A DNA stretch of 64,000 nucleotides, from positions 62,001-126,000 of the forward strand of contig NZ_JAASRW010000002.1 of the NCBI RefSeq assembly GCF_011761355.1. The letters run 5' to 3'. Shown here in pieces: positions 2,850 through 28,507 of this stretch. The stretch's first letter is position 1. The number at the start of each line of letters is the position of its first letter. Under the pieces are notes generated by a model. It was not told the DNA's origin, searched no databases, and saw only the letters and a list, made by a program, of their open reading frames with translations. The position numbers and the translations under genes were made by a program. The DNA is from Paenibacillus lupini (GTDB lineage Bacteria > Bacillota > Bacilli > Paenibacillales > Paenibacillaceae).

Positions 2850-3004
2850 TAGTCATACATCCTTTCTTATGCCGAGAATTAAGAGTTTAATGAAAAGAGC
2901 TGTTTGTATTACAACATAAGCGTGCCTTATCAGCCTATAGCCTAATGATGCTTTTATATGGATTGTTGTTGTTTCTGATACAGCTATCATTCTAAAAGCT
3001 ATTA

Positions 3005-3073
3005 ACCTATAACTTGGCAGGTAATAAATCCGCAATCCAGCAGGTTGCTGGAGCCGTCGGCTAGAGCTACACT
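3005..3073 (+). promoter_or_regulatory. regulated promoter of the GH43-GH10 operon with two tandem operator sites
   Basis: Site 1 is ACCTATAACTTGGCAGGT at 3005-3022. Site 2, 23 bp further at 3028-3045, is ATCCGCAATCCAGCAGGT and runs into the -35 TTGCTG (3045-3050). A 17-bp spacer leads to the -10 TACACT (3068-3073). The GH43 start is about 60 nt downstream. The same arrangement recurs at 5853-5920 and 15330-15398. An activator touching the -35 from tandem sites is typical of AraC-type regulators (family knowledge); the identity of the protein is inference. Confidence 0.7.
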
Positions 3074-3135
3074 GTCCTTGTTGCGCCAATAAACAAGGGA
3101 TAGCAATACCTTGATGAATGGAGAGGGAACTGCAC

Positions 3136-4662
3136 ATGAGCAGCATTGTTATAACGAACCCTATTATTTGGGCGGATGTACCTGATATTGATATGATTCG
3201 CGTAGAAGATACCTTTTATATGGTTAGCACTAGTATGCATTCGATGCCAGGGTGTCCGATTATGAAGTCTAATAATCTGAAGGATTGGGAGATCGTAAAT
3301 TATGTTTTTGATACGATCGAAGATAATGATGCCCACAATCTATCAGACGGTAAAGGCATTTATGGGCAAGGCTCATGGGCTTCCAGCCTGCGCTATCATA
3401 ACGGAACCTATTATGTATGCTTCTCCTGCAATGATAGTCAGCAGTTCTATATTTACCGGACGCTGGATATCCAGCACGGCACATGGGAGCGCTCGGTTAT
3501 TAATGGGCTTCTGCATGATCCTGGACTACTGTTTGATGAAGATCGTGTCTTTGTATTCAGCGGCAACGGGAATATCTATATTACCGAATTAACAGCTGAC
3601 GCTTCCGAGATCAAGCCTGACGGAATCCGTCAGCTATTAATTGAAGGGGAGCGTGAAGGCATGGGGCTGCGGATAGAGGGCTGCCATGCTTATAAGCTGA
3701 ACGGTTATTATTATTTATTCTTCATAGATTGGCCGCGAACCGGTCATGGACGCCGCCGAGAGCTGTGTTACCGTTCGAAGGAGCTTCTTGGACCTTATGA
3801 ACATAAAGTCATTCTCGATGATGATCTTGGCTATCACAACAAGGGAGTTGCGCAAGGCGGTATAATCGATACGCCTATTGGTGAATGGTTTACCTTCTTA
3901 TTTCAGGATCATGATGCTGTTGGCCGGATTCCATGCGTGCTGCCGATGTCCTGGGAGGATGGCTGGCCGGTTATCGTAAATGATGGTAAAGCGCCAATCT
4001 CCTTCGAAGCAAATCTTCCGGAATCGGTTTCCAAGCCGATTGTCATCAGCGATGAATTCGACTATCAAGAGAACAAACTCGCTCTGAACTGGCAATGGAA
4101 CCATAATCCCGACAACAAGCGGTGGTCAGTTACAGCCCGGCCGGGTTATCTGCGTCTGGAGACTAGTCAAATCACTGATCGTGTCGTGCTTGCCCGTAAT
4201 ACGTTGACCCAGCGGACGGAAGGTCCGGCATGCAGCGGGAAAACGGTATTTGATTTGTCCTATATGAAAGCTGGTGATCATGCTGGTCTTGTCGCCCTGC
4301 AAAGCGGATATGGTACGGTTGGCGTTCAAGCAGAGGATAACGGCGAACGTTATGTCGTAATGGGGATTAATCGTGGCGACGGCGGTATGGAAACGGTGGA
4401 AAAGCACCGGTACGAAGAAAGCCAAATTCATGTGAAAATTAATTTTGATTTCCGCGACAGCATTGATCTTGCCTATTTCTATTATTCAACTGACGGATTG
4501 GAGTGGACGCAGATCGGCCGTCCTCTGCAGATGAGATACACACTGGATCATTTTATGGGCTACCGGATTGGTCTGTATAACTATGCCACGAAGCAACCCG
4601 GTGGCTATGTCGACTTCGATTATTTCCGTTACAGCAAGTCAATTGAAGAAAAGGGGATATGA
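3136..4662 (+). CDS. GH43 beta-xylosidase / alpha-L-arabinofuranosidase
   Basis: A 508-aa cytoplasmic GH43 enzyme. The propeller domain begins NPIIWADVPDIDM, where Asp17 is the likely general base; Asp128 (HDPGLLFDED) fits the pKa modulator and Glu181 (RIEGCHAYK) the general acid. From about residue 310 a beta-sandwich of the GH43_C2 kind follows (ISDEFDYQENKLALNWQWNHNP, GYLRLE). This layout is that of beta-xylosidases or arabinofuranosidases acting on short xylo-oligosaccharides with inversion. No signal peptide. The start at 3136 is preferred because GGAGAGG sits 9 nt upstream; the ATG at 3118 is itself part of that ribosome-binding region. It is followed after 3 nt by a GH10 gene, so the two are probably translationally coupled. 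Confidence 0.88.
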   Translation: MSSIVITNPIIWADVPDIDMIRVEDTFYMVSTSMHSMPGCPIMKSNNLKDWEIVNYVFDTIEDNDAHNLSDGKGIYGQGSWASSLRYHNGTYYVCFSCNDSQQFYIYRTLDIQHGTWERSVINGLLHDPGLLFDEDRVFVFSGNGNIYITELTADASEIKPDGIRQLLIEGEREGMGLRIEGCHAYKLNGYYYLFFIDWPRTGHGRRRELCYRSKELLGPYEHKVILDDDLGYHNKGVAQGGIIDTPIGEWFTFLFQDHDAVGRIPCVLPMSWEDGWPVIVNDGKAPISFEANLPESVSKPIVISDEFDYQENKLALNWQWNHNPDNKRWSVTARPGYLRLETSQITDRVVLARNTLTQRTEGPACSGKTVFDLSYMKAGDHAGLVALQSGYGTVGVQAEDNGERYVVMGINRGDGGMETVEKHRYEESQIHVKINFDFRDSIDLAYFYYSTDGLEWTQIGRPLQMRYTLDHFMGYRIGLYNYATKQPGGYVDFDYFRYSKSIEEKGI

Positions 4663-4665
4663 TTC

Positions 4666-5679
4666 ATGACATCAGATCAAAAACAGCTGCAAACAGAGGT
4701 TTCGTTAGCTAAAGCCTTCCAGGATGATTTTCTTATTGGAGCAGCAGTAAATAAACGGACAATCGTCAGTCAGAGTGATCTTTTGAAGGAGCATTATAAC
4801 AGCTTAACCGCAGAGAACGAGATGAAGTTCGAAAGCCTGCATCCGGAGGAGCATCGTTATACCTTTGAGGAGGCTGACCGGATTGCGGGGTTCGCGCGCG
4901 AGAACGGCATGAAGCTGAGAGGACATACGCTTGTATGGCATAATCAAACGCCAGACTGGGTATTTGACGATGGCAATGGCGGGAAGGCTGGTCGTGACTT
5001 GCTTCTTGACCGAATGAAGTCACATATTGAGACTGTAGTATCGCGTTACAAGGATACGATCTATTGCTGGGATGTTGTGAACGAAGCGGTAACGGATGAG
5101 GGAGCAGAATGGATGCGTCCAACCAAATGGCTGCATGGCATTGGTGAGGATTACATCGAGCAGGCTTTCAGGTTTGCACATGAGGCCGATCCGCAAGCGC
5201 TGTTATTTTACAACGATTACAATGAGTGTAATCCCGGCAAACGTGAGAAAATCTACTTCATGGTCAAATCACTGCTGGAAAAAGGTGTTCCTGTTCACGG
5301 GATCGGACTTCAGGCGCATTGGAATCTGTATGATCCATCTCTCGGCCAAATACGTGAAGCCATTGAGCGTTATGCCTCACTAGGCGTAAAGCTGCAAATG
5401 ACGGAGATGGATGTGTCTATGTTTGCTTTTGACGATAGACGGACGGATCTGACGGAGCCTACGTCGGAAATGATGCGTCTGCAGGAAGTAAGATACAAGC
5501 AGTTCTTCGAACTGTTCCGGGAATATAAAGAGGTCCTGACCAGCGTAACCTTCTGGGGGGCGGCAGATGATTATACCTGGCTGGATCATTTCCCTGTTAG
5601 AGGCAGGAAAAACTGGCCGCTCTTATTCGATACCGATCAGCGTCCGAAGGATGCGGTCAAAACCATCATCGGACAATAA
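4666..5679 (+). CDS. intracellular GH10 endo-1,4-beta-xylanase
   Basis: A 337-aa single-domain GH10 (beta/alpha)8 xylanase without signal peptide, anchors or binding modules. Family signatures are clear: NSLTAENEMKFESLHP, LRGHTLVWHNQTP, acid/base Glu140 in WDVVNE and nucleophile Glu247 in MTEMDVS. Intracellular GH10 enzymes of xylanolytic paenibacilli trim imported xylo- or methylglucuronoxylo-oligosaccharides; that role is inferred here from the lack of a secretion signal and from the coupled GH43 gene. The start codon is 3 nt after the GH43 stop with AAGGGG upstream. A terminator hairpin follows directly, closing a two-gene operon driven by the promoter at 3005-3073. Confidence 0.93.
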   Translation: MTSDQKQLQTEVSLAKAFQDDFLIGAAVNKRTIVSQSDLLKEHYNSLTAENEMKFESLHPEEHRYTFEEADRIAGFARENGMKLRGHTLVWHNQTPDWVFDDGNGGKAGRDLLLDRMKSHIETVVSRYKDTIYCWDVVNEAVTDEGAEWMRPTKWLHGIGEDYIEQAFRFAHEADPQALLFYNDYNECNPGKREKIYFMVKSLLEKGVPVHGIGLQAHWNLYDPSLGQIREAIERYASLGVKLQMTEMDVSMFAFDDRRTDLTEPTSEMMRLQEVRYKQFFELFREYKEVLTSVTFWGAADDYTWLDHFPVRGRKNWPLLFDTDQRPKDAVKTIIGQ

Positions 5680-5691
5680 CAAATAGAGAGA

Positions 5692-5720
5692 AACGCGTTC
5701 CCTACGGGAGCGCGTTTTTT
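5692..5720 (+). terminator. intrinsic terminator after intracellular xylanase
   Basis: AACGCGTTCCC pairs with GGGAGCGCGTT around a 3-nt loop and is followed by a run of T. It ends the GH43-GH10 operon. Confidence 0.85.
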
Positions 5721-5721
5721 C

Positions 5722-5829
5722 GAATTCTAAGAATTTATAAGTTTCATTCTATAAACAGGGCTTAGAATTCTCCGGAATGAAACGCGCCCCGCTGCCAAGG
5801 ACGGCGAAGCCGTTTCACCTTGTGTGAAA
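5722..5829. repeat. structured intergenic element with interleaved inverted repeats
   Basis: The non-coding stretch between the xylanase terminator and the next promoter holds four nested or crossed inverted repeats. GAATTCTAAG (5722-5731) pairs with CTTAGAATTC (5761-5770), and GTTTCATTC (5741-5749) pairs with GAATGAAAC (5775-5783); the two cross, giving pseudoknot topology. A smaller hairpin TTTATA/TATAAA (5734-5739, 5750-5755) encloses GTTTCATTC in its loop. ACGGC-GAA-GCCGT (5801-5813) and TTTCAC/GTGAAA (5813-5829) follow. It looks like a dispersed intergenic repeat of paenibacilli, but copies elsewhere cannot be checked here. The rest of the 308-bp gap 5680-5987 holds the terminator, the promoter at 5853-5920 and the leader. 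Confidence 0.55.
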
Positions 5830-5852
5830 GCTGCCAGCGGTCATCCGGTTAT

Positions 5853-5920
5853 TTCTATAGCTTGGCGGGTGTTCTACCAAAGAGCGACAGGTTGTTGCCT
5901 CTTTCTGTAAGCACTACACT
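5853..5920 (+). promoter_or_regulatory. regulated promoter of the MacB-like ABC operon (same family as 3.0 and 15.4 kb)
   Basis: Site 1 TTCTATAGCTTGGCGGGT (5853-5870) matches the 3.0-kb site at 14 of 18 positions. Site 2 (5875-5892) ends GCGACAGGT and runs into the -35 TTGTTG (5892-5897). A 17-bp spacer leads to TACACT (5915-5920). The spacer segment TGTAAGCAC followed by TACACTTTT is nearly identical to that at 15.4 kb. The first upstream half-site is the weakest of the three promoters. Confidence 0.6.
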
Positions 5921-5987
5921 TTTTAAGAAAGCAATTGCGGGGGTGTTGGCCATTAGGAAACAACGCATAGAGGAAAGGGAAATAGCT

Positions 5988-6716
5988 GTGCTGGCACTGG
6001 AGGAAGAGCAAATAGAAGCAGGTGGTCAGGCGCTTCTTACGGCAACGGGGATTAAGCGGGTATTCGGAAAAGGTAATACCGCTGTTACCGCGTTGTCTGA
6101 TATTGAGCTTGATGTACCTGCCGGCTCGATGGTTGCCCTGAAAGGGCGGTCGGGCTCGGGCAAGACAACATTGCTCAATATTTTAAGTGCGTTGGATGAG
6201 CCGACAGAAGGCCAGGTTTTTTTTCGTGGTAAGGAAATTACCGGATTATCTGGTAAGGCGAGGAATGCATTGCGGCGTAAAGAGATCGGGCTGGTGTTCC
6301 AATCCTTTGGTTTGATCCCGCTGATGTCTGCTTACGAGAATGTTGAGTTCGGTCTTCGCATTGCGGGGACACCGGTCAAGGGCAACCGTGAAGCTGCGGA
6401 ACGGGCGCTTGAACGGGTAGGAATGCGCGAGCGGATGAAGCATCGTCCAATGGAGCTGTCGGGTGGTGAGCAGCAGCGCGTGGCTATAGCCCGTGCAATT
6501 GCACATGAACCGGCGCTGCTAATTGCTGACGAGCCAACTGCTGAGTTGGACAGTCGAATGGGTCTGCAGGTGATGCGGGTATTCAGGGATCTAGTCAGAC
6601 ATGCCGGTATGACCATTCTTCTTACTACCCATGACCCGGGAATGATGGAGCTCGTTGATTATGTTATTGCATTGGAGGATGGGAAAATTGTTTCCAAAAC
6701 AGCGAATCAATTCTAA
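5988..6716 (+). CDS. ABC transporter ATP-binding protein (MacB/LolD type)
   Basis: A 242-aa ABC ATPase of the MacB/LolD/FtsE group. Walker A is GRSGSGKTT (residues 53-61), the signature is LSGGEQQR, Walker B is [12 protein letters not shown] and the H-loop is LLTTHD. With the adaptor and FtsX-like permease downstream it should form a mechanotransmission or export complex at the membrane. The start is taken as GTG 5988 with AGGAAAGGG 8 nt upstream; the frame stays open to 5820, but that part runs through the promoter and repeat. Its last 29 nt overlap the adaptor gene. It is the first gene after the regulated promoter at 5853-5920, linking this system to the xylan genes. Confidence 0.85.
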   Translation: MLALEEEQIEAGGQALLTATGIKRVFGKGNTAVTALSDIELDVPAGSMVALKGRSGSGKTTLLNILSALDEPTEGQVFFRGKEITGLSGKARNALRRKEIGLVFQSFGLIPLMSAYENVEFGLRIAGTPVKGNREAAERALERVGMRERMKHRPMELSGGEQQRVAIARAIAHEPALLIADEPTAELDSRMGLQVMRVFRDLVRHAGMTILLTTHDPGMMELVDYVIALEDGKIVSKTANQF

Positions 6717-7737
6717 TTGGAAGTCGTTTGCAAAGCGGACTGCGGTCGTGGCATTCACAGCGATTGCCTTGTCCGGCTGCTCGCTTCTTCCCCGTGAGGA
6801 AGCGGCACTGCAGCCCCCACTAATTCAGCCGGTTCAGGAAAAGCTGGATCTGGTTGCTGTAACCCGAGGCAATATACAAACCTCACTGAAGGGCACGGCA
6901 ACCTTTGTCTCCTCGAATGTGAAGACGCTGTCATTTATCGAATCAGGCGGACAGCTGAAATCCGTTAACGTTAAGCTTGGACAAGAGGTAAAGGCCGGTG
7001 AACTATTGGCTGAGCTGGAGACAGAGGATCTGGCACTGCAGGTTCGACTGCAAAAGCTAAGCGTAGAGCGAGTGCAGCTTCTGTATAAAGAAGCCGTGCA
7101 GGGCGGAGTGTCCGGGACGGAGAAACGGCTGAAAGAAATTGACCTTGAAAGGGAACAAATATCGCTGCAGGCGATGGAAGGCAAGCTTAACAAGTCGCAG
7201 CTGTACTCGCCAATCTCGGGAACGGTTATATACGTCGATTCTATTAAAACTGGCGACCGTGTAAATGCCTATCAAACGATTGTAACGGTAGCTGACCCTT
7301 CCAGCATGCAGCTGACTTATGTGGCATCGGATGCCAAAGATGTTCTTGGTATTGAAGCTGGCATGCCCATCAGCTTGAAGTATAAGGGGAAGGACTACAC
7401 TGGTAAGGTGCTGCAGTCTCCATCGAGTGCACCTGTCAGTACAGATCAGTCAAAGGCTGACAGCAATGCTATAACAATCGTAATGGGGATAGATCATCCG
7501 CCGGAAGGGATTCAAATCGGCCATAGCGCCGACATGATGATTGATCTTCAGAAGCGGGAAAATGTCATCGTGCTGCCGCGGAAAGCGATCCGCTCCTATA
7601 TGGGACGCAATTATGTGCAAATTGCAGACGGTGAACGTAAAAAAGAAGTCGATGTTGAAGTTGGCCTGACGACGCCAACTGAAGTGGAGATTGTAAAAGG
7701 CCTGGAGGAAGGACAACAGGTTATTCTAAACAACTGA
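6688..7737 (+). CDS. efflux adaptor lipoprotein (HlyD/MacA-like, membrane-fusion family)
   Basis: A 349-aa protein with a lipoprotein signal (lysine-rich start, hydrophobic stretch VVAFTAIA, lipobox LSGC). Then come a biotinyl-lipoyl-like hairpin (LKSVNVKLGQEVKAGELLAEL and LYSPISGTVIYVDSIKTGDRV), a short coiled coil between the halves (LQKLSVERVQLLYKEA to SLQAMEGKLNK) and a beta-barrel (GKVLQSPSSAP, MMIDLQKRENVIVLPRKAI). In Gram-positives such adaptors partner MacB-like permeases, spanning the space outside the membrane. The start is set at TTG 6688 because GGAGG lies 9 nt upstream and this yields a compact signal peptide; starts at 6655, 6661 or 6679 lack a well-spaced site. It overlaps the ATPase gene. 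Confidence 0.85.
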   Translation: MFPKQRINSNWKSFAKRTAVVAFTAIALSGCSLLPREEAALQPPLIQPVQEKLDLVAVTRGNIQTSLKGTATFVSSNVKTLSFIESGGQLKSVNVKLGQEVKAGELLAELETEDLALQVRLQKLSVERVQLLYKEAVQGGVSGTEKRLKEIDLEREQISLQAMEGKLNKSQLYSPISGTVIYVDSIKTGDRVNAYQTIVTVADPSSMQLTYVASDAKDVLGIEAGMPISLKYKGKDYTGKVLQSPSSAPVSTDQSKADSNAITIVMGIDHPPEGIQIGHSADMMIDLQKRENVIVLPRKAIRSYMGRNYVQIADGERKKEVDVEVGLTTPTEVEIVKGLEEGQQVILNN

Positions 7738-7785
7738 CGGTACTATGAAAGCCCGGGTGACAGGGCGCAAGAATGAGGTGTACGC

Positions 7786-10653
7786 ATGGCATTATGGACA
7801 ATGATTCTCCGCAAGATGGCAAATAACAAATGGCTGCAGTTGAATTTATGGTTTGGTCTTACCGTTTGTGTAGCTCTGTTCAGCTCAATGCCGCTTTATT
7901 CGGATGCCATCTTGCAGAGGACTTTGCAGAAGGAACTTCAGATGGTTCAAAGCAAGAACTCCGAGTATCCGGGTTATGTGCGGGTCAGCACATCGGTCTC
8001 CTCTTCCAAGATAGATCAGAAAACAGTAGAGGCGATTGGACGTGCGGACCGATTCATACAATCGATTCCTGAGCGCATGGGGCTGGAGGATCTATCTTTT
8101 TATCAACAGCGCTTCACCCAGAAAATGAAGGTATATGGAGCGGATGCATCGGAGCAGGAAATCAAGACACAGAAGACGACAGGCGGCTTCAAGTCACTGT
8201 CTGATATGGAAAAGCGGGTTCGTCTCATTGATGGCCGGATGCCGGTTGACCGTTCGGATGGTCTGTTTGAAGCGCTGGTAACGCAAAAGTTTCTTAACTC
8301 TACCAAGCGCGATCTGGGAGAGGAGCTTCTGGCAGAATCGGCGGATAAGCAATTGTTTCGAGTCATTCCTGTTGGGATTATTGATACGGACCCGTCAGCA
8401 GATCCGTACCTGCCTTTTTTGGTGACAGATGAACCAGACGGTTTTATGATACCCTTCCAGCAATTCGAGCGCGAATTCATTACGAAGGATGGCAAAGTAA
8501 GGGTATCCGATCTGGAATGGCGTTATGCAATGGACTATAAGCAGATGAGTATTGATAAGATCGAGGAATTTAATGAAGCCAACCGGGCGATCCGAAGCTA
8601 CTTCCGCGGACGACTTGGTTCGGCAGAGGTTAATATTCCTGCGAATGAAACCATTGCTTCCTATCAAGGCAAGAAAGAAAAGCTTGATGTCATGATGCTG
8701 TCGCTGTATTCCCCCGTTATGCTCATGCTGGCATTCTATTTGTTTATGGCGGCTAATCTCGTAATTGAGAGGCAGAAAACGGAAATATCCGTGCTGCGAA
8801 GCCGCGGAGCCAGCCGGCTGCAGATCATGACTGCGTATACCTTGGAAAGCATGCTGCTTGGTGCAAGCGCACTTGCGGCTGGTCCGTTTATTGGGGTTAC
8901 CTTTACCAAAGTGCTCGGGGCATCCAACGGATTCCTTGAATTTGTTCAGCGCTCGGCACTGGAGGTCAGTCTTAACAGCAGTGCATACAAAGTCGCTGTT
9001 ACAGCAGTAGTTGGAGCCATTGTACTTATCTTGATACCGGCTTTTTTGGCGACCAGGGTATCGATTGTAAGTCACAAGCAGCAGGCGGCAAGGCTTACCA
9101 AGATGTCCTTTTGGCATAAGACGGGCATCGATATTGTACTTGTCGGTCTGGCATTATATCTACTCTATAATTTCAATAACCGGCAGGAGGATTTGAAGCG
9201 TCTGGCGCTGGATTCAGATGCCCTGCAGGTGGATCCGCTGCTGTTCCTGATGCCTGCTCTCTTCGCGTTAGGGGCCGGACTATTGGTACTTCGAATTTAT
9301 CCATGGTTTATCCTGCTTGTTTATTGGGCGGGACGCAGGTGGTGGCCGCCAGCACTATACAACACGCTTATACAAATCAGCCGTTCATCAAGGCAGTATC
9401 TAACGATTAAAGTGTTTCTTGTGCTGACGGTGTCTACCGGCTTGTTCAGTGCCAATGCAGCCCGGACGATTAACGATAATATGGAAAGTAAAATCCAATA
9501 TAACATTGGGGCAGACATAACCTTGACCACCCGCTGGGAAAGCGATGCACCTCCGCCAAGCCTGCAGGGGGGAGAGCCTCAGACACAGGCGGCGCAAGGC
9601 ACGGGTGACAAACGGGTGCAATATACCGAGCCGCCGTTTCAGCCATTCCAAAATCTGAAAGGCATAGAAGCATCAGCTAAGGTATTCCGGAAGGATGGGG
9701 CAAGATTTAGTGCAGGCAGCAAAAATACATCCGGAGCAACTACTCTGGTAGGCGTCGACACCATGGCATTTGGTCAAACCGCATGGATGAAAGATGGTCT
9801 GCTGGATCATCCGATCAACAGTTATTTGAATCTGATAGCAACTAATCCGAAGGCCGTATTAATCTCGCGGTCGTTGGCAGACGCATCCAAGGTGAAACCT
9901 GGAGATCCGATTCGTATTTATTGGGATGGATTAGATGAGGCCATATTTACCGTTTACGGCATTATCGATTATTGGCCGGGCTGGAATCCACTGCCAGTTA
10001 CCGCGGATGGAGAGGAGAAGGCCTCCAAGCCTAATCTAATCGTGGGCAATCTGAGCACCATTCAGAACAGGCTGGCTGTTGAACCATATGAGGTATGGCT
10101 TAAGCTGAAGGATGGCATTTCCAGCCAATCCATTTATGATCAGCTGACCACAGCCAAAATCAATGTTACCGGACTTCAAGATGCAAAGCAGGAGCTGATC
10201 ACGTCCAGGAACGATCCGTTCCGCATGGCGATTAATGGCGTCATGACGCTGGGCTTTGTAATCTCCATGCTGATCAGCTTCTTTGGATTTCTTTTATTCT
10301 GGGTTCTGGCCTTGTCAGGCAGAACGCTGCAGTATGGTGTTCTTCGGGCGATGGGGATTCCGTTCCCACAAATTATCGGTATGCTGCTCAGTGAGCAGCT
10401 GCTTACCTCCGGCGCAGCAGTTATTATCGGTGTGCTGATCGGCAACATGACGAGTGAACTATTCGTACCCTTATTCGAAATGTCATTTGCAACGGCAGAG
10501 CAGGTTCCGCCATTCGAGATTGTATATAAGCTAAGCGATTATGTGCAGCTGTACACCATTATTGGCCTGACACTAACCATAGGTCTGCTTATTCTTGGAT
10601 ATCGGTTGTCTAGGACCAAAATTGCTCAAGCCTTAAAGCTGGGGGAGGAGTAA
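7786..10653 (+). CDS. FtsX/MacB-like ABC permease, large two-module form
   Basis: A 955-aa membrane protein. It has an N-terminal transmembrane helix (residues about 20-38), a long extracellular region, and an FtsX-type membrane module near residues 300-450 carrying the motif ERQKTEISVLRSRGAS. Central helices follow at about 450-560, then a second extracellular region (GADITLTTRWESDAPPP onward) and a second FtsX module near 815-950 with LSGRTLQYGVLRAMGIP. Duplicated FtsX modules in one chain occur in Gram-positive permeases of the lipoprotein or peptide type. Substrate is unknown. It lies between the adaptor and a second ATPase gene 3 nt downstream, in the operon co-regulated with xylan enzymes. 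Confidence 0.85.
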   Translation: MALWTMILRKMANNKWLQLNLWFGLTVCVALFSSMPLYSDAILQRTLQKELQMVQSKNSEYPGYVRVSTSVSSSKIDQKTVEAIGRADRFIQSIPERMGLEDLSFYQQRFTQKMKVYGADASEQEIKTQKTTGGFKSLSDMEKRVRLIDGRMPVDRSDGLFEALVTQKFLNSTKRDLGEELLAESADKQLFRVIPVGIIDTDPSADPYLPFLVTDEPDGFMIPFQQFEREFITKDGKVRVSDLEWRYAMDYKQMSIDKIEEFNEANRAIRSYFRGRLGSAEVNIPANETIASYQGKKEKLDVMMLSLYSPVMLMLAFYLFMAANLVIERQKTEISVLRSRGASRLQIMTAYTLESMLLGASALAAGPFIGVTFTKVLGASNGFLEFVQRSALEVSLNSSAYKVAVTAVVGAIVLILIPAFLATRVSIVSHKQQAARLTKMSFWHKTGIDIVLVGLALYLLYNFNNRQEDLKRLALDSDALQVDPLLFLMPALFALGAGLLVLRIYPWFILLVYWAGRRWWPPALYNTLIQISRSSRQYLTIKVFLVLTVSTGLFSANAARTINDNMESKIQYNIGADITLTTRWESDAPPPSLQGGEPQTQAAQGTGDKRVQYTEPPFQPFQNLKGIEASAKVFRKDGARFSAGSKNTSGATTLVGVDTMAFGQTAWMKDGLLDHPINSYLNLIATNPKAVLISRSLADASKVKPGDPIRIYWDGLDEAIFTVYGIIDYWPGWNPLPVTADGEEKASKPNLIVGNLSTIQNRLAVEPYEVWLKLKDGISSQSIYDQLTTAKINVTGLQDAKQELITSRNDPFRMAINGVMTLGFVISMLISFFGFLLFWVLALSGRTLQYGVLRAMGIPFPQIIGMLLSEQLLTSGAAVIIGVLIGNMTSELFVPLFEMSFATAEQVPPFEIVYKLSDYVQLYTIIGLTLTIGLLILGYRLSRTKIAQALKLGEE

Positions 10654-10656
10654 AGC

Positions 10657-11547
10657 ATGATCAGATGCGAGGAACTTGTGAAAATCTACAAAACGGCCGA
10701 TCTCGAGGTTGTTGCTCTTCAAGGGCTGGATATGCAGGTGAACGATGGAGAGTTAATGGCGATTATCGGCAATTCAGGAAGCGGGAAATCTACGCTGCTG
10801 AATATGCTGGGCGGATTAGATAAGCCGTCTGCAGGCAAGTTGTTTGTTGATGGTAAGGATTTGCTTTCGTTCGGTGAAAAGGAGCTTGTGAACTATAAGC
10901 GTGAAACGGTTGGTTTCGTATGGCAGAATAATGCCCGCAATCTGATTCCTTACCTGACCGCACTAGAGAATGTGGAGCTTCCTGTTCTCCTGAAGGGCAG
11001 AAGGTGCAGGGCGCGTGCCATCGAACTGCTTGAGGCAGTAGGTCTTGGCCATCGGTTTAAAAATAAGCTCAGTGAGCTGTCTGGCGGCGAGCAACAGCGG
11101 GTCGCTATCGCCATCGCATTGGCAAACGAGCCTAGGCTTCTTCTTGCAGATGAACCAACAGGTTCACTGGATACGAAGACCTCCGATCAGGTACTAGATC
11201 TGTTCCGTACCCTGAATCAGACGATGGGGATAACGATTGTGATCGTCACACATGATCCGCTGCTCGCCCGTAAGGTAGACCGGGTTGTCCAAATCAGGGA
11301 TGGTAAAACCTCTGCTGAAATGATCCGCAGAGAATCCTATGCCGATGAGCTGGCAAGGCTTGATGCCGAGGATGCGATGTCTGGTCAGCAGGAGAGCCAC
11401 ATTGAGTACGCCGTGCTGGACAAAGCTGGCCGGCTTCAAATTCCGGCTGGCTATCTGGACGCAGATGGTTTCAAGGACAGCAATAAGGTGCGGGTGGAGA
11501 TGGAGGAAGGCCGTATTATCCTCTATCCGCAGGAAATGATGCCATGA
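10657..11547 (+). CDS. ABC ATP-binding protein with C-terminal AbrB-like domain
   Basis: A 296-aa protein. Residues 1-225 are a MacB/LolD-type ATPase: Walker A GNSGSGKST, signature LSGGEQQR, Walker B LLLADEPTGSLD, H-loop IVTHD. After a linker the last 50 residues (AVLDKAGRLQIPAGYL, then KVRVEMEEGRIILYP) match the swapped-hairpin AbrB/SpoVT pattern (DxxGRxxIP ... DGRIILxP). AbrB-like domains dimerise and often bind DNA, so the tail might dimerise the ATPases or act in regulation; that is inference. It is the second ATPase in an operon with a single permease, suggesting a heterodimeric nucleotide-binding pair on the two-module permease. Its start is 3 nt after the permease stop. Confidence 0.85.
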   Translation: MIRCEELVKIYKTADLEVVALQGLDMQVNDGELMAIIGNSGSGKSTLLNMLGGLDKPSAGKLFVDGKDLLSFGEKELVNYKRETVGFVWQNNARNLIPYLTALENVELPVLLKGRRCRARAIELLEAVGLGHRFKNKLSELSGGEQQRVAIAIALANEPRLLLADEPTGSLDTKTSDQVLDLFRTLNQTMGITIVIVTHDPLLARKVDRVVQIRDGKTSAEMIRRESYADELARLDAEDAMSGQQESHIEYAVLDKAGRLQIPAGYLDADGFKDSNKVRVEMEEGRIILYPQEMMP

Positions 11548-11609
11548 TCCGCCCCGTAAGGGGTGTTTATATGGAATATTCAAAAAAAAGGGAAAAGTGA
11601 GGTGTATTA

Positions 11610-14291
11610 ATGTTAATGAAGAAACTTGGATGGAAGCGTTCACTATCAGGCGTTTTGGCCGCTGTTGTAATGCTCGTGTCTTTGTCGCTTAGCGTACTGC
11701 CGAAACAAGCAGGGGCGGAAGCGGGAACAGAGCGAATGGCAACGGACTTTGAGGATGGCACGATTCAAGGATGGACTGGACGCGGGGGGAATGAAGTGCT
11801 GACTGCTTCGGAGCTTGCGGCCCACTCAGGTGCATACGGACTGCAGGTAACAGGAAGGTCGCAAAGCTGGAATGGTCCACAGCTGGATGTGACCTCCATT
11901 ATGGCGGAAGGAAAAACCTATGTGCTTACCGCATGGGTCAAGCTTCCGGCAGGATCAGCAGCCTCATCCGTATCGATGACTGTACAGCGTACAACTGATG
12001 GCACGACTAATTATGAAGGGGTCAATGCCGGGAATGCAACTGCGGACGGCTGGGTGAAGCTTAGCGGTCAATATCTATTGAAGCAGCCGGTTCAGAGTCT
12101 CTCTGTTTATTTTGAAGCATCAGCAAACCCTACATTGGACTTCTATGTCGATGATTTCTCCATTGAGAGGCTTCCGGATCCGGAGCCGATTGTCATTGAG
12201 CAGAATATTCCTTCTCTCAAAGACGTATTTGCCGATGATTTCAAACTCGGTACAGCTATTCTCGTTAATGAGATTGAAGAGCAGAGCGGACCCGATGCAC
12301 AGCTGATTAAGAAGCATTTCAACAGCTTAACGGCTGGCAATGAGCTGAAATGGGATGCTACGGAGCCACAGGAAGGTCAGTTCAACTTTACACGTTCGGA
12401 TAAAATCGTTGATTTTGCCGTTGAGAATGGTATTGCCATGCGTGGTCATACGCTGATCTGGCATTCTCAAACCCCGAACTGGGTGTTCTACGATGAGAAT
12501 GGTAACCTTGCAAGCAAAGAGCTGCTGTTTGCTAGGATGAAACGTCATATTGAGACTGTGGTTGGACGGTATAAGGGCAAGATCTACGCATGGGATGTTG
12601 TTAATGAAGTACTTGAGCCAGGTGATAATCAGCCGGGCGGTCTCCGCAACAGCTTATGGTATAAGATTGCAGGTGAAGAGTTTATTGAGAAGGCATTCGA
12701 GTATGCGCATGAAGCAGATCCGGATGCGAAGCTCTTTATCAATGATTACAATACGAATATACCGGATAAGCGGCAGGATTTGCATGACTTGATTAAGAGG
12801 CTGAAAGATAAAGGCATTCCTGTTGACGGCGTTGGTCATCAGACACATATCGGCATTGAAAATCCACAGGTTCAAGAGCTTGATGATATGATTCAAGCCT
12901 TTACTGATCTGAACATTGAACAGCAGATTACAGAGCTTGATATGAGTGTATACACCAATGACAATGATGCCTATGAGACATTCCCGCTAGACCTGCAGAT
13001 TAAGCAGGCGAAAAGGTATAAGGAAATATTCGATGTGTTCAGAAAACATGCGGATCAGTTAACGGCTGTTATTTTCTGGGGCAAGGATGATCTGAATACT
13101 TGGCTGCGAACCTTCCCAGTCGACCGCAACAACTGGCCGCTGTTGTTTGATGAGCGGCTTCAAGCGAAATATGCTTATTGGGCATTGGCAGACCCGAGCA
13201 AGCTGCCTGTGGACATTCAAAATACAACAGCAGCGAATGCAGGTGCTGACATTGATGGTAAGCTGGAGGATGCTTGGAGCAAGGCTTCTGCCGTATCCAT
13301 ATTAAACGAAGGTGCAGCTGTAGCGAAGTTCAAGACCTTATGGGATACAGACCATCTTTATATTACAGTTGATGTATCGGATGCGAGCACAAACGGAAAT
13401 GATGCAGTAGAAGTATTCATTGATGGCAATAACGGTAAGACAACAGCATACGAAGCGGATGACAAGAAATATACCTTCCGCCGGAGTGGAGCAAATCCCG
13501 GTAAGCCTGCTGCTTATAAAGTGATTAAGCTTACTGATGGATACCGGATTGAAGCAGCCATTCCGGTTGATCATGCATCGCTAAACGATAAGCTTGGATT
13601 TGATGTTCGTATTTTAGATAAGGCTGGCAGCACAGTAAAGAATACTTCATGGAACGATAGAACGGGTTCACAGGATACGGATACATCCAAATATGGCGTA
13701 TTAACCTTAATTCAGGGGCCACAATATTCAGAAGCTCTGATGGGTGCGCCAGTTATAGACGGCAATATGGATTCCCTATGGAGCAAGGCAAATATTGTAA
13801 CAACTGACCGCTGGGTACAAGGAACCAATGGGTCAAAAGCAAAGGTTAGAACGCTGTGGGACGCAGGACGTTTATACGTTCTCGCGGAAGTGACGGATTC
13901 ACTGCTATCCAAGCAAAGTCCTAATGTGTGGGAGCAGGATTCACTAGAGATATTTGTTGATCAGAACAAAGCGGCGACTGCCAGCTATCAAGCAGATGAC
14001 GGTCAATATCGGATCAACTTTGATAATCAGCAAAGCGTAAATCCGGTGGCGCTTGGTGGAAATCTGGTATCTGCAGTGAAACAAACGGCGAACGGTTATG
14101 TCGTAGAAGCTTCAATTAAATGGAACGGAACACCACCGGCAGCCGGGGACATCATCGGCTTTGATGTTCAGGTAAATAACGATGAAGACGGCGACGGGGA
14201 CCGTGACAGTGTGGCGATATGGAATGACCGTTCCGGTCTATCCTACACGAATACTTCCGGCTTTGGACTACTGAAGCTGGGTGGGCAATAA
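11610..14291 (+). CDS. secreted multidomain xylanase CBM22-GH10-CBM9-CBM9
   Basis: An 893-aa extracellular endo-xylanase. A signal peptide covers about residues 1-36 (cleavage near QAGA). A CBM22 module follows (FEDGTIQGWTGRGG to FYVDDFSIERL, about 42-190). The GH10 catalytic domain (about 195-535) has acid/base Glu333 in WDVVNE and nucleophile Glu442 in ITELDMS. Two CBM9 modules (about 545-705 and 712-893) share strand patterns such as AKFKTLWDTDHLYITVDVSD. CBM22 and CBM9 bind xylan and reducing chain ends. There are no SLH repeats or sorting motif, so it should be released or bind the substrate. It lies 62 bp after the ABC operon without a terminator between, and may be co-transcribed with it. 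The ATG at 11610 has GAGG 7 nt upstream. Confidence 0.93.
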   Translation: MLMKKLGWKRSLSGVLAAVVMLVSLSLSVLPKQAGAEAGTERMATDFEDGTIQGWTGRGGNEVLTASELAAHSGAYGLQVTGRSQSWNGPQLDVTSIMAEGKTYVLTAWVKLPAGSAASSVSMTVQRTTDGTTNYEGVNAGNATADGWVKLSGQYLLKQPVQSLSVYFEASANPTLDFYVDDFSIERLPDPEPIVIEQNIPSLKDVFADDFKLGTAILVNEIEEQSGPDAQLIKKHFNSLTAGNELKWDATEPQEGQFNFTRSDKIVDFAVENGIAMRGHTLIWHSQTPNWVFYDENGNLASKELLFARMKRHIETVVGRYKGKIYAWDVVNEVLEPGDNQPGGLRNSLWYKIAGEEFIEKAFEYAHEADPDAKLFINDYNTNIPDKRQDLHDLIKRLKDKGIPVDGVGHQTHIGIENPQVQELDDMIQAFTDLNIEQQITELDMSVYTNDNDAYETFPLDLQIKQAKRYKEIFDVFRKHADQLTAVIFWGKDDLNTWLRTFPVDRNNWPLLFDERLQAKYAYWALADPSKLPVDIQNTTAANAGADIDGKLEDAWSKASAVSILNEGAAVAKFKTLWDTDHLYITVDVSDASTNGNDAVEVFIDGNNGKTTAYEADDKKYTFRRSGANPGKPAAYKVIKLTDGYRIEAAIPVDHASLNDKLGFDVRILDKAGSTVKNTSWNDRTGSQDTDTSKYGVLTLIQGPQYSEALMGAPVIDGNMDSLWSKANIVTTDRWVQGTNGSKAKVRTLWDAGRLYVLAEVTDSLLSKQSPNVWEQDSLEIFVDQNKAATASYQADDGQYRINFDNQQSVNPVALGGNLVSAVKQTANGYVVEASIKWNGTPPAAGDIIGFDVQVNNDEDGDGDRDSVAIWNDRSGLSYTNTSGFGLLKLGGQ

Positions 14292-14321
14292 AGCAGAACG
14301 GAGTAACGATCGCAACAAAGA

Positions 14322-14380
14322 AAACCGGTTAAAGTTCGGGACTTATGGATAAGTCCAAAGCTTTAGCCGGTTTATTTTTT
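14322..14380 (+). terminator. strong terminator after multidomain xylanase
   Basis: A long stem pairs AAACCGGTTAAAG with CTTTAGCCGGTTT (one G-U pair) around an inner hairpin GGACTTA-TGGA-TAAGTCC, followed by TATTTTTT. It sits between convergent genes and could work on both strands. Confidence 0.85.
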
Positions 14381-14415
14381 ATGACTGCAAGCGCTTTCCA
14401 AAAAGACATTTCGAA

Positions 14416-15171
14416 CTATGCAATAACCGTGCTTTGCTTGCGATACTCATTAGCGCTTGCGCCGGTGTATTCCTTGAACTTCTTATAGAACCAGTCAATT
14501 TCCGTATATCCGACTTCATTGGCAATCTCATAGATTCGCATGTCTGTTCTTTCAAGCAGAATTTTTGCCTTCTCCATTCGCTGCTGAAGAAGATACTCGT
14601 TAAACGACATATTCTCCTGGTCTTTGAACTTCTGGCCAAGATAGGCACAGTTGAAATGCAGCAGGCTGGAGATTTTTTTTAAGGTAATGTTTTGATGTAA
14701 CTGCTCCTGTACATATTGTTTGACGAGGTCAATGATGGACGGATTCAGATTTTTTTTCTTCTCATAACTTAAGGTTATCCGATGGGAGTGAACAGATTGA
14801 GCGTCAAGCTCTTTCTTCACCTTACGCAGGCTGGCAGCCAGATCCTCCGGTTGTACGGGATCCGCAATGTAATCGCTTACCTGAAAGGCCATCGCTTTCC
14901 GCAGCAGCTGGAAATCATGACTGCCTCCAAGAAGAATAATAGGTACCCGGCTATACTCACGGATCCGTTCACAGAGCAGCATGCCGCTGGACTGCGAGTG
15001 TTTAAGATCTATTAGAACAAGGTCAACTGACAGTGTACTGAGTATGTCTTGAATGTCAGAGAGAGAATACGCGTCGGCTTGGAGCATGAAGCCATGCTGC
15101 TCCCAATGAAACATAAGTCGGGTTTCTTCTCTGGAATAACGGTCAGGTTGAACTAGCAACGCCTTATACAT
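14416..15171 (-). CDS. AraC-type regulator with degenerate receiver domain (YesN-like)
   Basis: A 251-aa protein with a receiver-like N-terminus (about 1-120) and an AraC DNA-binding C-terminus (about 150-250: LKKISSLLHFNCAYLGQKFKDQ and IYEIANEVGYTEIDWFYKKFKEYTG). The phospho-acceptor position is kept (Asp55 in LVLIDLKHS). The acidic pocket, normally DD, is Gln8-Pro9 (LLVQPD), and the conserved Lys of the KP motif is Asp104 (YIADPV). Ordinary phosphorelay control is therefore doubtful. No histidine kinase is adjacent, unlike the two YesM/YesN pairs in this window. It is divergent from the importer operon across a 259-bp gap holding the tandem operators, making it the best local candidate to bind them (inference). 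GGGAGG precedes the ATG. Confidence 0.85.
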   Translation of the reverse strand: MYKALLVQPDRYSREETRLMFHWEQHGFMLQADAYSLSDIQDILSTLSVDLVLIDLKHSQSSGMLLCERIREYSRVPIILLGGSHDFQLLRKAMAFQVSDYIADPVQPEDLAASLRKVKKELDAQSVHSHRITLSYEKKKNLNPSIIDLVKQYVQEQLHQNITLKKISSLLHFNCAYLGQKFKDQENMSFNEYLLQQRMEKAKILLERTDMRIYEIANEVGYTEIDWFYKKFKEYTGASANEYRKQSTVIA

Positions 15172-15329
15172 AGGCTGAACCTCCCTTTCTAAGGAATCGT
15201 CTCTGACGGATTATGGTTTTTATTATTGTTCATTCAGTGGACAGGTGACAATGTGCATTTCTTTATCCATCATCCATTTGTTTACTTCTTGGTTTAATAG
15301 CTGGCTGACAATCCGCGTTATTCCTCAAA

Positions 15330-15398
15330 ACCTATAAATTGACAGGTCATTGACCTATTTAAAGGCAGGTTGTTGGTCAGAAATGTAAGCGCTACACT
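15330..15398 (+). promoter_or_regulatory. regulated promoter of the nine-gene importer operon with two tandem operators
   Basis: Site 1 ACCTATAAATTGACAGGT (15330-15347) and site 2 ACCTATTTAAAGGCAGGT (15353-15370) are both near-perfect copies, 23 bp apart. Site 2 overlaps the -35 TTGTTG (15370-15375); a 17-bp spacer leads to TACACT (15393-15398). The GTG start is about 33 nt downstream. The spacer contains TGTAAGCGC, and together with TACA this resembles a cre site that lacks one base. This is the best-preserved of the three related promoters. Confidence 0.75.
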
Positions 15399-15430
15399 TT
15401 TCCCTGTAAACCAAATTAGGGGGGACCAAT

Positions 15431-16828
15431 GTGAAAGTAAAAAAGACGGTTATGATGCTTTCGACTTTGATGTTAGCTGCTTCATTAACGGCATGCAGCA
15501 GTAGCAGCGGCAGTAATGGTAACGGGAACAGCAATGCTAACAACACAGATGCGACGGCAAGCAATAATGCAGCCGCCTCTAATAACGCCGCAGCATCAAA
15601 TAATGCCGGGAACGCTGAAGAGGATCCTTCATCGCCTGAGATGGACTTCGACATGGGCGGCAGAACAATCAAGGTTGTATCCTGGTGGGATATGACGATT
15701 GGGGAAGACAATCCGGACAATATCCAGCGTAAGAAGAACCTGGAGGAGCTTGAGAAGAAGCATAACTTCAAGATGGAATTCATTGCGGTTGACTACGGCG
15801 AATACCAGCAAAAAGTTGTTGCATCCCTGCTTGCTGGTGAGCCCCTTGGCGATATTGTGAGATTGGGTAAAAACTACACCATTCCGACCTTGGTGCAGCA
15901 AGACCTGCTATGGCCGGTTGATGAATATACGAAAAACACAAAAGTATTTAATCCAAAGGCTACAGAGTTTATGTCCTACAATGGCCGCGGTTACGCCTTC
16001 ACTGAAGGTCAAGGTAACTTGATTACCGGTATTTTCTATAACCGTACTCTCCTTAACAAGCTTGGTATTAAGTCTCCCCAAGATTATGTGAAAGAGGACA
16101 ACTGGAACTGGGATACATTCACTCAAGTAGCTAAAGATGCGAACAAAGATACGAATAATGACGGAAAGCTGGATACATGGGGACTAGCGTCAGGCGGATT
16201 TATGGATCCAGCTCTTGTATCCAATGAAACGAGCCTAACCAATGGAGATAAGCAAAATCTGGACGATCCAAAAACCGTTGAGGTATTTAATTTCCTCTCC
16301 AAACTGGCGACAGAGAAAGTGGCCCGCCCAACAGAAGGCGGCGACTGGACAGAACCAGGTCAATTCTTCCGTCAAGGCAATACGCTTATGTATGCCGGTG
16401 CTATGTATGAAATTGGCGGCTTGAAAACGGATATGAAGGACTACGATATCGGCTTTGTGCCATTCCCTAAAGGTCCAAGTGCTACGGCATACCATTCCTC
16501 TGAGGGTGCATTCCAAGCTCTGACCATTCCGAAGAGTGTAGAGAATCCTGATCAGCTGGTATATATCTGGGAAAAAATCAATGATATCGATTCGATCTAC
16601 GACTATGCGGATCAAGCATCGCTTGAGAGCAACTTCACGGATGAGAACGATATCCAAAACGCCCGTGATGCAGGCGCAGGCATGCTGGTGCTGGACAGCG
16701 GCACATTCCCTAAATTCCCTTACTACGAAATGATTGGTGAGCTGACCTCTGGCAACTCGGTATCTACTGTCATCGACACGTATAAAGCACCGGCTCAAGC
16801 CGCAATTGACGAGGTTTACAAAAAGTAA
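15431..16828 (+). CDS. ABC sugar-binding lipoprotein (CUT1, family 1)
   Basis: A 465-aa extracellular solute-binding protein. The lipobox is LTACSSSSG near residue 22, followed by an Asn/Ser/Ala-rich linker to about residue 60. The mature domain starts RTIKVVSWWDMTIGE and continues with typical family-1 features (LEELEKKHNFKMEFIAVDYGEYQQKV, GRGYAFTEGQ, FYNRTLLNKLG). Such proteins capture oligosaccharides, here probably xylan-derived, and deliver them to MalF/MalG-type permeases. GTG start with AGGGGGG upstream. It is the first gene behind the promoter at 15330-15398. A 12-bp stem-loop follows it at 16847-16881. Confidence 0.88.
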   Translation: MKVKKTVMMLSTLMLAASLTACSSSSGSNGNGNSNANNTDATASNNAAASNNAAASNNAGNAEEDPSSPEMDFDMGGRTIKVVSWWDMTIGEDNPDNIQRKKNLEELEKKHNFKMEFIAVDYGEYQQKVVASLLAGEPLGDIVRLGKNYTIPTLVQQDLLWPVDEYTKNTKVFNPKATEFMSYNGRGYAFTEGQGNLITGIFYNRTLLNKLGIKSPQDYVKEDNWNWDTFTQVAKDANKDTNNDGKLDTWGLASGGFMDPALVSNETSLTNGDKQNLDDPKTVEVFNFLSKLATEKVARPTEGGDWTEPGQFFRQGNTLMYAGAMYEIGGLKTDMKDYDIGFVPFPKGPSATAYHSSEGAFQALTIPKSVENPDQLVYIWEKINDIDSIYDYADQASLESNFTDENDIQNARDAGAGMLVLDSGTFPKFPYYEMIGELTSGNSVSTVIDTYKAPAQAAIDEVYKK

Positions 16829-16846
16829 CAATTGAAGTTAATGCCG

Positions 16847-16881
16847 ACAGTCCCCATTTCGAATATGGCAATGGGGACTGT
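16847..16881 (+). promoter_or_regulatory. intercistronic stem-loop after sugar-binding gene
   Basis: ACAGTCCCCATT (16847-16858) pairs perfectly with AATGGGGACTGT (16870-16881) around an 11-nt loop; no T-run follows. It probably protects the upstream mRNA or lowers read-through into the permease genes. Equivalent hairpins follow the other three importer-heading binding-protein genes. Confidence 0.65.
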
Positions 16882-16920
16882 TGCTAAAGTGAAATCTCTT
16901 GCCGCAGGAGGGGAGAAGAG

Positions 16921-19821: not shown

Positions 19822-19838
19822 CTTGGGGGTGAATTCCG

Positions 19839-20804
19839 ATGCCTGAAACGAGTCAAACCGTAATCGTGCCTGTGCCTGATCTCATTAAGCAGCCAGTCAA
19901 GGTATCAAGATTGGCGCAAACGTTCCAAGAGATCAAGAAAAACAAGCACTATTATATCCTGATGAGCCCTTACATGATTATTTTCACCCTGTTTACCATT
20001 ATTCCGGTTGTATTCTCGATCTGTCTCAGTTTTTTCTATTTCAATATGCTCGAATTCCCAAGGTTCGTAGGATGGGACAATTATTCCAGGCTGTTTCTGA
20101 ATGATGATGTCTTTATGATTGCCTTGCGGAATACCTTCATGTTCGCTGTCATTACAGGACCAATCAGCTATCTCGCCTGCTTCCTATTTGCCTGGATTAT
20201 TAATGAGCTGTCTCCGAAAATCCGGGCGATTATGACTTTGATTTTTTATGCTCCATCAATTGCAGGAAATGTGTATTTCATATGGCTGATCGTATTTTCA
20301 GGAGACCGTTACGGTTACTTGAATGGTTTCCTGATCAAATTCGGCTTTATTCTGGAGCCGATCCAATGGCTTACGAACGAGAATTATATTCTGACCATCG
20401 TTATTATCGTTCAGTTGTGGCTGAGCCTTGGTACCAGCTTCCTTGCGTTTATCGCAGGGCTTCAGACGATTGATCGAACACTTATAGAAGCAGGCGCAGT
20501 TGACGGAATCCGGAACCGTTGGCAGGAGCTGTGGTTCATTACGCTTCCATCGATGAGGCCGCAGCTGTTATTCGGCGCAGTTCTTCAAATTACTGCTTCG
20601 TTCGCCGTAGCGGATGTTTCCATCGCGCTGGCGGGCTTCCCAAGTGTTAACTACGCAGCGCACACAATTGTCACACATCTGATGGATTATGGCACAATCC
20701 GCTTTGAGATGGGTTATGCCTCGGCCATTGCAACCGTTCTATTCCTGATTATGGTGGGTGCCAATAAGCTGACCCAGAAATTGCTTAGAAAGGTCGGTGA
20801 GTGA
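19839..20804 (+). CDS. CUT1 sugar ABC permease, MalF/LplB type (pair 1)
   Basis: A 321-aa inner-membrane permease with six predicted helices (first near YMIIFTLFTIIPVVFSICLS). The cytoplasmic EAA loop is EAGAVDGIRNRWQELWFITLP, which docks the shared ATPase. It partners the next gene, whose start overlaps its stop by 4 nt. GGGGGTG precedes the ATG at 19839. No ATPase gene lies in the operon, as usual for firmicute importers that use a MsmX-type ATPase encoded elsewhere. Confidence 0.9.
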   Translation: MPETSQTVIVPVPDLIKQPVKVSRLAQTFQEIKKNKHYYILMSPYMIIFTLFTIIPVVFSICLSFFYFNMLEFPRFVGWDNYSRLFLNDDVFMIALRNTFMFAVITGPISYLACFLFAWIINELSPKIRAIMTLIFYAPSIAGNVYFIWLIVFSGDRYGYLNGFLIKFGFILEPIQWLTNENYILTIVIIVQLWLSLGTSFLAFIAGLQTIDRTLIEAGAVDGIRNRWQELWFITLPSMRPQLLFGAVLQITASFAVADVSIALAGFPSVNYAAHTIVTHLMDYGTIRFEMGYASAIATVLFLIMVGANKLTQKLLRKVGE

Positions 20805-21679: not shown

Positions 21680-21693
21680 AAGGGAGCCAAAGC

Positions 21694-23767: not shown

Positions 23768-23771
23768 CAGC

Positions 23772-23975
23772 GCTTTCGAAGCAAGAATTGCTTCACAATT
23801 CTTTTGAGCTTACGAAGTATGAATCATCACAATGGCCTGAAGCTGGCCATTGGGTGATCATTCATGAGGCATATGCTTTCGAAGCAAGAATTGCTTCACA
23901 ATTCTTTTAAGTTGATGCTTACGAAGTATGAATCATCACAATGGCCAGAAGCTGGCCATTTGGGTGATCATTCAT
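23772..23975 (+). repeat. two tandem copies of a structured about 95-100 bp intergenic repeat
   Basis: Copy 1 spans 23772-23865 and copy 2 spans 23875-23975. They are nearly identical apart from a short insertion in copy 2. Each begins GCTTTCGAAGC, has a hairpin GAAGCAA-GAA-TTGCTTC, and ends in a long imperfect stem joining ATGAATCATCACAATGGCC with GGCCATT and GGTGATCATTCAT. Both lie inside the operon between the Yip1 gene and the DUF5696-type gene. The second copy ends 17 nt before the start codon and just upstream of its ribosome-binding site. Confidence 0.85.
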
Positions 23976-23991
23976 TTGAGGAGGCAAGAAG

Positions 23992-27455: not shown

Positions 27456-27462
27456 AAAGAAG

Positions 27463-28484: not shown

Positions 28485-28507
28485 CAAAAGAAGAAGGCGG
28501 GTTTCTT

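Follow-up and report, generated by a model that had tools for sequence, protein, structure and literature searches.

The Escherichia coli protein AraC, acting at sites of the araI1-I2 type, is an AraC/XylS activator whose direct-repeat sites overlap the -35, and the Geobacillus regulator XynC is of the AraC type as well. With its kinase XynD, XynC forms the XynDC system, which serves the xylo-oligosaccharide importer XynEFG and has homologues annotated in Paenibacillus sp. LS1, according to the available passages of PMC10269863; in Ruminiclostridium (Clostridium) cellulolyticum, the two-component system XydS/R serves a hemicellulase gene set (excerpts of PMC3572039). A 2025 review (PMC12632262) calls it a mystery how bacterial pseudo-receivers come to be activated. 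Here we describe a locus of Paenibacillus lupini within a 64,000-nt stretch of contig NZ_JAASRW010000002.1 (hereafter the window; the whole genome has 6,666,604 bases), in which we find three promoters of shared layout and, at 14416-15171, the gene of a regulator with a degenerate receiver. From the sequence we consider it likely that the three promoters form one xylan regulon, activated by this regulator independently of phosphorylation. The computed evidence consists of the sites, their direct-repeat form and conservation, their gene context, their co-occurrence with the protein, and the loss of receiver residues.

The locus resembles the AraC/XylS activators in the double helix-turn-helix (HTH) of its regulator and in its two direct repeats, which lie about two helical turns apart with the inner one touching the -35; judged by repeat score and coordinates, these appear to be direct-repeat sites near the -35 of the AraC/XylS kind. 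It differs from E. coli AraC in its step of 22-23 bp, in an N-terminal domain that is receiver-like rather than sugar-binding, and in a xylan rather than an arabinose regulon. As in XynDC, so far as the available text describes it, a response-regulator-type protein is tied to a xylo-oligosaccharide ATP-binding cassette (ABC) importer, but XynC has a partner kinase, whereas the window regulator has a degenerate receiver and no kinase match within 1.5 kb. XydS/R, in the excerpts at hand, is likewise a dedicated regulator of hemicellulase genes, but it is a two-component system with other genes in another organism. The regulator also resembles the atypical response regulators of PMC12632262, which have a receiver fold without the phosphotransfer residues; unlike the cases in the accessible part of that review, whose main text has no occurrence of 'arac', it has a target regulon defined by conserved DNA sites. 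The layout is not described in the main-text passages of the Paenibacillus sp. JDR-2 xylan work (PMC4765114) available to us, and searches of an open-access library turned up no description of the system.

Promoter layout and site form

A first-pass annotation of the window had proposed that three promoters share one layout, and sequence and pattern searches agree with it. Their elements are as follows; R1 is a 75-bp, sequence-only profile built on 27 promoters from other genomes.

3005-3022, plus strand: promoter 1, site 1 (ACCTATAACTTGGCAGGT); no mismatches to the pattern ACCTATNNNTTGRCAGGT; R1 match 3004-3073, 26.6 bits
3028-3045, plus strand: promoter 1, site 2; direct repeat 23 bp on, right half mainly kept (R1 alignment)
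3045-3073, plus strand: promoter 1, -35 TTGCTG (3045-3050), 17 bp, -10 TACACT (3068-3073)
5853-5870, plus strand: promoter 2, site 1 (TTCTATAGCTTGGCGGGT); R1 match 5853-5922, 37.8 bits
5875-5892, plus strand: promoter 2, site 2; 22 bp on (R1 alignment and close-genome footprint)
5892-5920, plus strand: promoter 2, -35 TTGTTG (5892-5897), 17 bp, -10 TACACT (5915-5920)
15330-15347, plus strand: promoter 3, site 1 (ACCTATAAATTGACAGGT); R1 match 15329-15400, 57.6 bits
15353-15370, plus strand: promoter 3, site 2 (ACCTATTTAAAGGCAGGT); 23 bp on (pattern search)
15370-15398, plus strand: promoter 3, -35 TTGTTG (15370-15375), 17 bp, -10 TACACT (15393-15398)

In each promoter the second repeat and the -35 share one base, which ends the former and opens the latter, and the measured steps between the sites (23, 22 and 23 bp) are those given in the annotation. 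Its wording for the first site, close to ACCTAT-N5-GRCAGGT, fits the site at 3005 exactly and the one at 5853 more loosely, with three mismatches to ACCTATNNNTTGRCAGGT; the latter is mostly invariant over our genome and five close genomes, and in footprints over the same set the motif stands out as the conserved block at promoters 1 and 2. The 17 bp to TACACT hold for all three promoters, whereas among relatives the -35 and -10 are 17 or 18 bp apart (16 in a single case, L025), and the -10, often TACACT, also reads TAAACT, TATATT or others, so 'exactly 17' is valid for our own genome. What did not survive is the description of the sites as dyad-like. When site 1 is set against the sequence 23 bp further downstream along the same strand of the 27-promoter alignment, the score is 16.7 bits; the best reverse-complement comparison reaches 4.2 bits, and the conserved form is therefore a direct repeat. 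The repeat consensus is roughly A-c-CTA-N8-GaCRGGT, and in the same alignment the best-conserved portion of site 2 continues into the -35 (CAGGTTG). The three promoters look sigma-A-type, with a weak -35 and -10. The placement of the promoters in non-coding gaps needs qualifying, as a mechanical listing of open reading frames (ORFs) lays a frame over each (2853-3146 minus, 5820-6716 plus and 15355-15783 minus), although 5820-6716 simply extends the ABC gene upstream.

A further element, TGTAAGCGC, lies immediately 5' of the -10 (window 15384-15392) and is common in relatives, while a similar element (GTTTGCGCTTTCA) occupies the opposite strand of the spacer in a group with P. amylolyticus among its members. 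The operator of CcpA (cre) has the consensus TGWAANCGNTNWCA, which the importer promoter matches at 11 of 14 positions, a score that is not unusual given that 77 places in the window reach at least 12; the element is perhaps a CcpA site for catabolite repression, overlapping the -10.

The annotation had judged the shared layout hard to explain by chance, and genome-wide searches bear this out. CAGGTTGYTG-N17-TACACT occurs without mismatch at three places in the whole genome, all of them the window promoters. With up to two mismatches this 33-bp core has nine places (three with none, six with two; reversed control 10), and with up to three it matches the window three times, each without mismatch; shuffled windows gave a mean of 0.45 core matches, and one shuffle in 100 reached at least three. 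The longer pattern CTAT-N4-TGNCRGGT-N18-CAGGTTG finds two of the three promoters without mismatch and nine other places at three mismatches (control 4), the MacB promoter being missed because its step is 22 bp. A generic-promoter reading of TGTAAGCGCTACACT was considered and rejected: with at most one mismatch this sequence has two places in the genome, each at one of the three regulon promoters, and so is not a type of promoter in general use.

The profile R1 provides independent evidence. It was trained on 27 of 79 loci, in named genomes, that hold relatives of the 14416-15171 protein; the training set was thinned until no two promoters were more than 80% alike across the motif blocks, and 13 loci were excluded by hand (the nearest relatives L010-L014, plus L020, L023, L024, L025, L050, L051, L052 and L070). 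In our own genome its sole confident matches are promoters 3, 2 and 1 (E 6.0e-15, 9.7e-9 and 3.1e-5), followed at E 0.016 by the next best. The genes that follow promoters 1 and 2 are unrelated to the ones at the training promoters, which makes these matches a genuine prediction. Three of the five weaker matches also precede xylan-type genes: C5:161670 (E 0.035), upstream of a protein with CBM9 and esterase-Ig domains; C2:34366 (E 0.068), upstream of a GH43-CBM6-SLH gene with a split frame; and C2:43934 (E 0.56), upstream of an esterase.

The regulator and its co-occurrence with the sites

The 251-aa protein encoded at 14416-15171 matches the Pfam families Response_reg (E 2.3e-11), HTH_18 and HTH_AraC. 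Its C-terminal domain of about 100 aa carries two HTH motifs, as is characteristic of the AraC/XylS family, and the protein has a sequence match in the PDB to a YesN HTH chain, 3lsg. The receiver, whose degeneracy the first-pass annotation had not mentioned, was scored against the two canonical regulators of the window in 76 orthologues (the 79 loci minus L052, L070, L079 and L086, where the frame from the match start is below 235 aa, plus the window protein). The acid pair and the lysine are found in none of the 76, the aspartate in 10, and a serine at the Ser/Thr position in four. Mean identity to the window protein is 76% in the HTH and 42% in the receiver. A predicted model keeps both folds (mean predicted local distance difference test, pLDDT, 82.7; predicted template-modelling score, pTM, 0.53), with alternating strands and helices over residues 1-132, a block pLDDT of 81-90 up to residue 120 and a disordered linker at 128-143. 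Unlike a canonical response regulator, the protein does not have a complete phosphotransfer site, and by the definition in the accessible text of PMC12632262 the residues mark the protein as a pseudo-receiver regulator. With the two window kinases as queries, whose matches mainly span the kinase end, the nearest 1.5 kb around the regulator gene hold no kinase match in any of the 79 loci, and 35 loci have one somewhere.

An SBP1 homologue (a substrate-binding protein, SBP, of the importer) is divergent from the regulator gene, at most 1.2 kb away, in 67 of the 79 loci, and the DNA between the two genes shows the layout in most loci. R1 matches the divergent promoter in 70 of 79 (27 being the training set). 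The loci that keep this motif include Paenibacillus and Cohnella, and several further genera that we take to be Bacillaceae. In L013, L020, L024, L051 and L052 an R1 site lies elsewhere in the locus (E 1e-3 or better), and in L025 there is a weaker one (E 0.0015); L013 has no importer in the flank examined, yet its site precedes a GH10-CBM gene. Across 51 genomes of the same genus, our own included, the core pattern has 43 places in 32 genomes, against one place for the reversed control.

Among 245 genomes of the family, an R1 match (E 0.001 or better) is present in 83 and an orthologue of the regulator in 83: 80 have both, three the motif alone, three the gene alone and 159 neither, so that the 162 genomes without the orthologue include three with a match (Fisher P 9e-57, uncorrected for descent among these related genomes). 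Orthologue cut-offs were chosen at gaps after viewing the lists, at E 1e-45 for the regulator (per-genome best values of 4.9e-47 and, next, 6.8e-36) and at E 1e-90 for the AraC-cupin control considered below. Since R1 was trained beside the regulator gene, sites away from the gene are the more telling evidence. The family scan scored 19 first-look candidates per genome, so its site counts are lower bounds; among at least 150 R1 matches listed, 76 lie more than 700 bp from the regulator gene or on another contig. Of these listed sites 75 were tallied, G004:C1:160297 being left out at the edge of its stretch (an open frame begins 33 bp downstream of it). In 74 of the 75, a same-strand ORF of at least 90 aa starts no more than 304 bp downstream. 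The annotation had held that a motif scoring equally often inside coding regions, or before unrelated genes, would speak against a regulon; 11 of the 75 sites also fall within some mechanically listed ORF, on one strand or the other, that is 100 aa or longer. A profile scan of our own and related genomes, with R1 in place of the matrix that the annotation had proposed to build from the three regions, returned the three promoters as the confident matches at home, and distant sites before xylan-type genes elsewhere.

Genes behind the sites

The genes of the window behind the three promoters, and the regulator, are listed here with Pfam assignments.

3118-4662, plus strand: GH43 of beta-xylosidase type carrying a concanavalin-like domain at its C-terminus, opening unit 1; alternative in-frame ATG at 3136
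4666-5679, plus strand: GH10, short form
5988-6716, plus strand: ABC ATPase of a MacB-like set; Pfam run on the longest ORF, 5820-6716, with the GTG start at 5988 guessed
6655-7737, plus strand: HlyD-like membrane-fusion protein
7786-10653, plus strand: FtsX/MacB-type permease, 955 aa
10657-11547, plus strand: second ABC ATPase
11610-14291, plus strand: CBM4_9-GH10-CBM9 protein (xylanase type)
14416-15171, minus strand: regulator candidate, pseudo-receiver and AraC-type double HTH (Pfam, alignments and predicted model), divergent from the importer operon
15431-28416, plus strand: nine-gene importer operon, in the order SBP, long SBP, permease, permease, NHL, Yip1, DUF5696 and two permeases (the first permease has no Pfam match and is named by position)
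28472-29767, plus strand: GH10, 431 aa, tenth gene in line after promoter 3

Within the importer operon, the NHL, Yip1 and DUF5696 proteins (window 21694-26544) have homologues of at least 50% identity in 70, 68 and 66 of the 79 regulator loci. The xylan regulon also contains the MacB-like set at 5988-11547 (ATPase, fusion protein, 955-aa permease and second ATPase), whose permease has a homologue at the same identity in 32 of the 79. In a PADLOC scan the set's ATPase matched ten families, the best being mad3 (E 2e-31), which we read as shared ATPase sequence, and the permease matched none.

The clusters behind 74 listed family sites, named through Pfam on a few members or BLAST to window proteins rather than protein by protein, comprise GDSL hydrolases (17 and one fragment), receiver-AraC (REC-AraC) regulators (11), other GH43 (8), GH43-CBM6 (7), GH10 (5), GH5 (2), esterases (2), importer SBPs (7), MacB-type ATPases (6), ABC exporters (6) and proteins of no family (2). 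Where the regulator gene is distant, the site still stands upstream of the importer; the distance is 18.9 kb in G005 and 22.2 kb in G187, whose regulator gene lies beside a GH43. Two proteins behind regulon sites resisted assignment: the 564-aa product of L205:1308-2999 (minus strand) has no Pfam or NCBIfam match, and the 583-aa product of L200:1278-3026 (minus strand) no Pfam match. In G007 (locus L248) a gene for a 730-aa ABC exporter stands between promoter and GH43, whereas the window and G010 have no gene between the two. In our own genome, the secreted GH43-CBM6-SLH gene (L255:1743-4540; C2:34742-37539) is split into two frames, which is a frameshift or an assembly error, and its weak regulon site lies about 320 bp upstream.

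Mechanism and alternatives

The annotation's proposal of a xylan regulon with this regulator is well supported by comparison: R1 picks out the same three promoters, the genes are of xylan type, and the protein co-occurs with the sites. The 14416-15171 protein would bind both repeats as a dimer, the two HTH motifs of each subunit covering one repeat, and would contact polymerase at the -35 as a class II activator. We infer this binding, dimer geometry and -35 contact from the AraC-type family, the geometry of the repeats and the weakness of both promoter hexamers; the activator role, the sigma factor and the transcription starts following the -10 elements are likewise presumptive. As the receiver lacks the phosphotransfer residues, switching by a histidine kinase is improbable, and the regulator might instead respond to a ligand, to a partner protein (in loci with a canonical regulator next door, perhaps that regulator) or to its own level. 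Imported xylo-oligosaccharide would be a reasonable first candidate for the signal. More tentatively, one could also speculate that the pseudo-receiver is itself the sensor, binding an imported xylo-oligosaccharide or other small molecule directly.

Several observations weigh against this reading. The window protein is one of the 10 that retain the aspartate. A kinase match lies 1.6-2.0 kb from the regulator gene in 22 of the 79 loci, with a second REC-AraC match between in 20 of these, so that a canonical pair is sometimes a neighbour. L023, L050 and L070 have the gene but no R1 site in the locus DNA examined; in the family, G090, G220 and G264 have the motif without the orthologue, and G108, G230 and G238 the orthologue without the motif. 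The co-occurrence is also partly built in, because R1 was trained beside the regulator gene and some training genomes are among the 245. Two of the five weaker R1 matches in our own genome precede no xylan gene: C1:526852 (E 0.016) has no same-strand ORF of at least 60 aa starting within 900 bp, and C8:339042 (E 0.29) falls within a 325-aa ORF. At one family site, G050:C11:64719, no ORF begins on the same strand in the next 600 bp.

Another AraC-type regulator, of the YesN/XynC type or the AraC-cupin protein encoded at 502-1533, could be the main binder, with the pseudo-receiver as accessory, heterodimer partner or competitor. This we consider unlikely, though it accords with the neighbouring kinases, which usually come with a REC-AraC gene of their own, with the 11 listed family sites that precede a REC-AraC gene (assigned by Pfam in one case), and with a 532-aa frame of our genome (G000:C8:299037) whose HTH is 51% identical to the regulator's. 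Related proteins may, moreover, use related sites, since a tandem of CTATAATTSCTSAGGT with a 23-bp period occurs once elsewhere in the genome. However, the motif follows the pseudo-receiver orthologue in 80 of 83 genomes, as against 49 of 83 for the AraC-cupin protein (close orthologues in 55 genomes), which was rejected as the regulator for this weaker co-occurrence, and the HTH of the orthologues is far better conserved than their receiver. The tandem itself, a perfect one at C1:526853-526891 (L253, L259) and the sole genome match at up to three mismatches, is perhaps the site of a related regulator.

Much less probable is that the sites are operators of a dyad-binding dimeric repressor released by xylo-oligosaccharides. 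The importer's first site is indeed an imperfect palindrome, its reverse complement fitting the pattern at three mismatches, but the conserved signal is the direct repeat by the margin in bits given above, the promoters are weak and the sites end at their -35, short of the -10 and the start, and the regulator that co-occurs with them is AraC-type. That the promoters resemble one another by chance or through a recent segmental duplication, as three short sites chosen by eye in 64 kb might suggest, can be dismissed in view of the independent profile, the genome-wide uniqueness, the conservation in many genomes, and flanks so dissimilar (13-20 of 60 positions identical) that the promoters are not a recent segmental copy.

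Activation by the pseudo-receiver regulator, the reading we prefer, would tie a pseudo-receiver regulator to a defined DNA site, to a small group of targets and to an obvious candidate signal (xylan fragments), in a system of which 80 genomes hold both site and gene, and the R1 profile could be used to predict xylan genes, including exporters and proteins of unknown function. If the receiver does act as the sensor, a receiver fold that lost phosphotransfer would have turned a two-component regulator into a one-component sugar switch that is conserved across the Paenibacillaceae and in part of the Bacillaceae.

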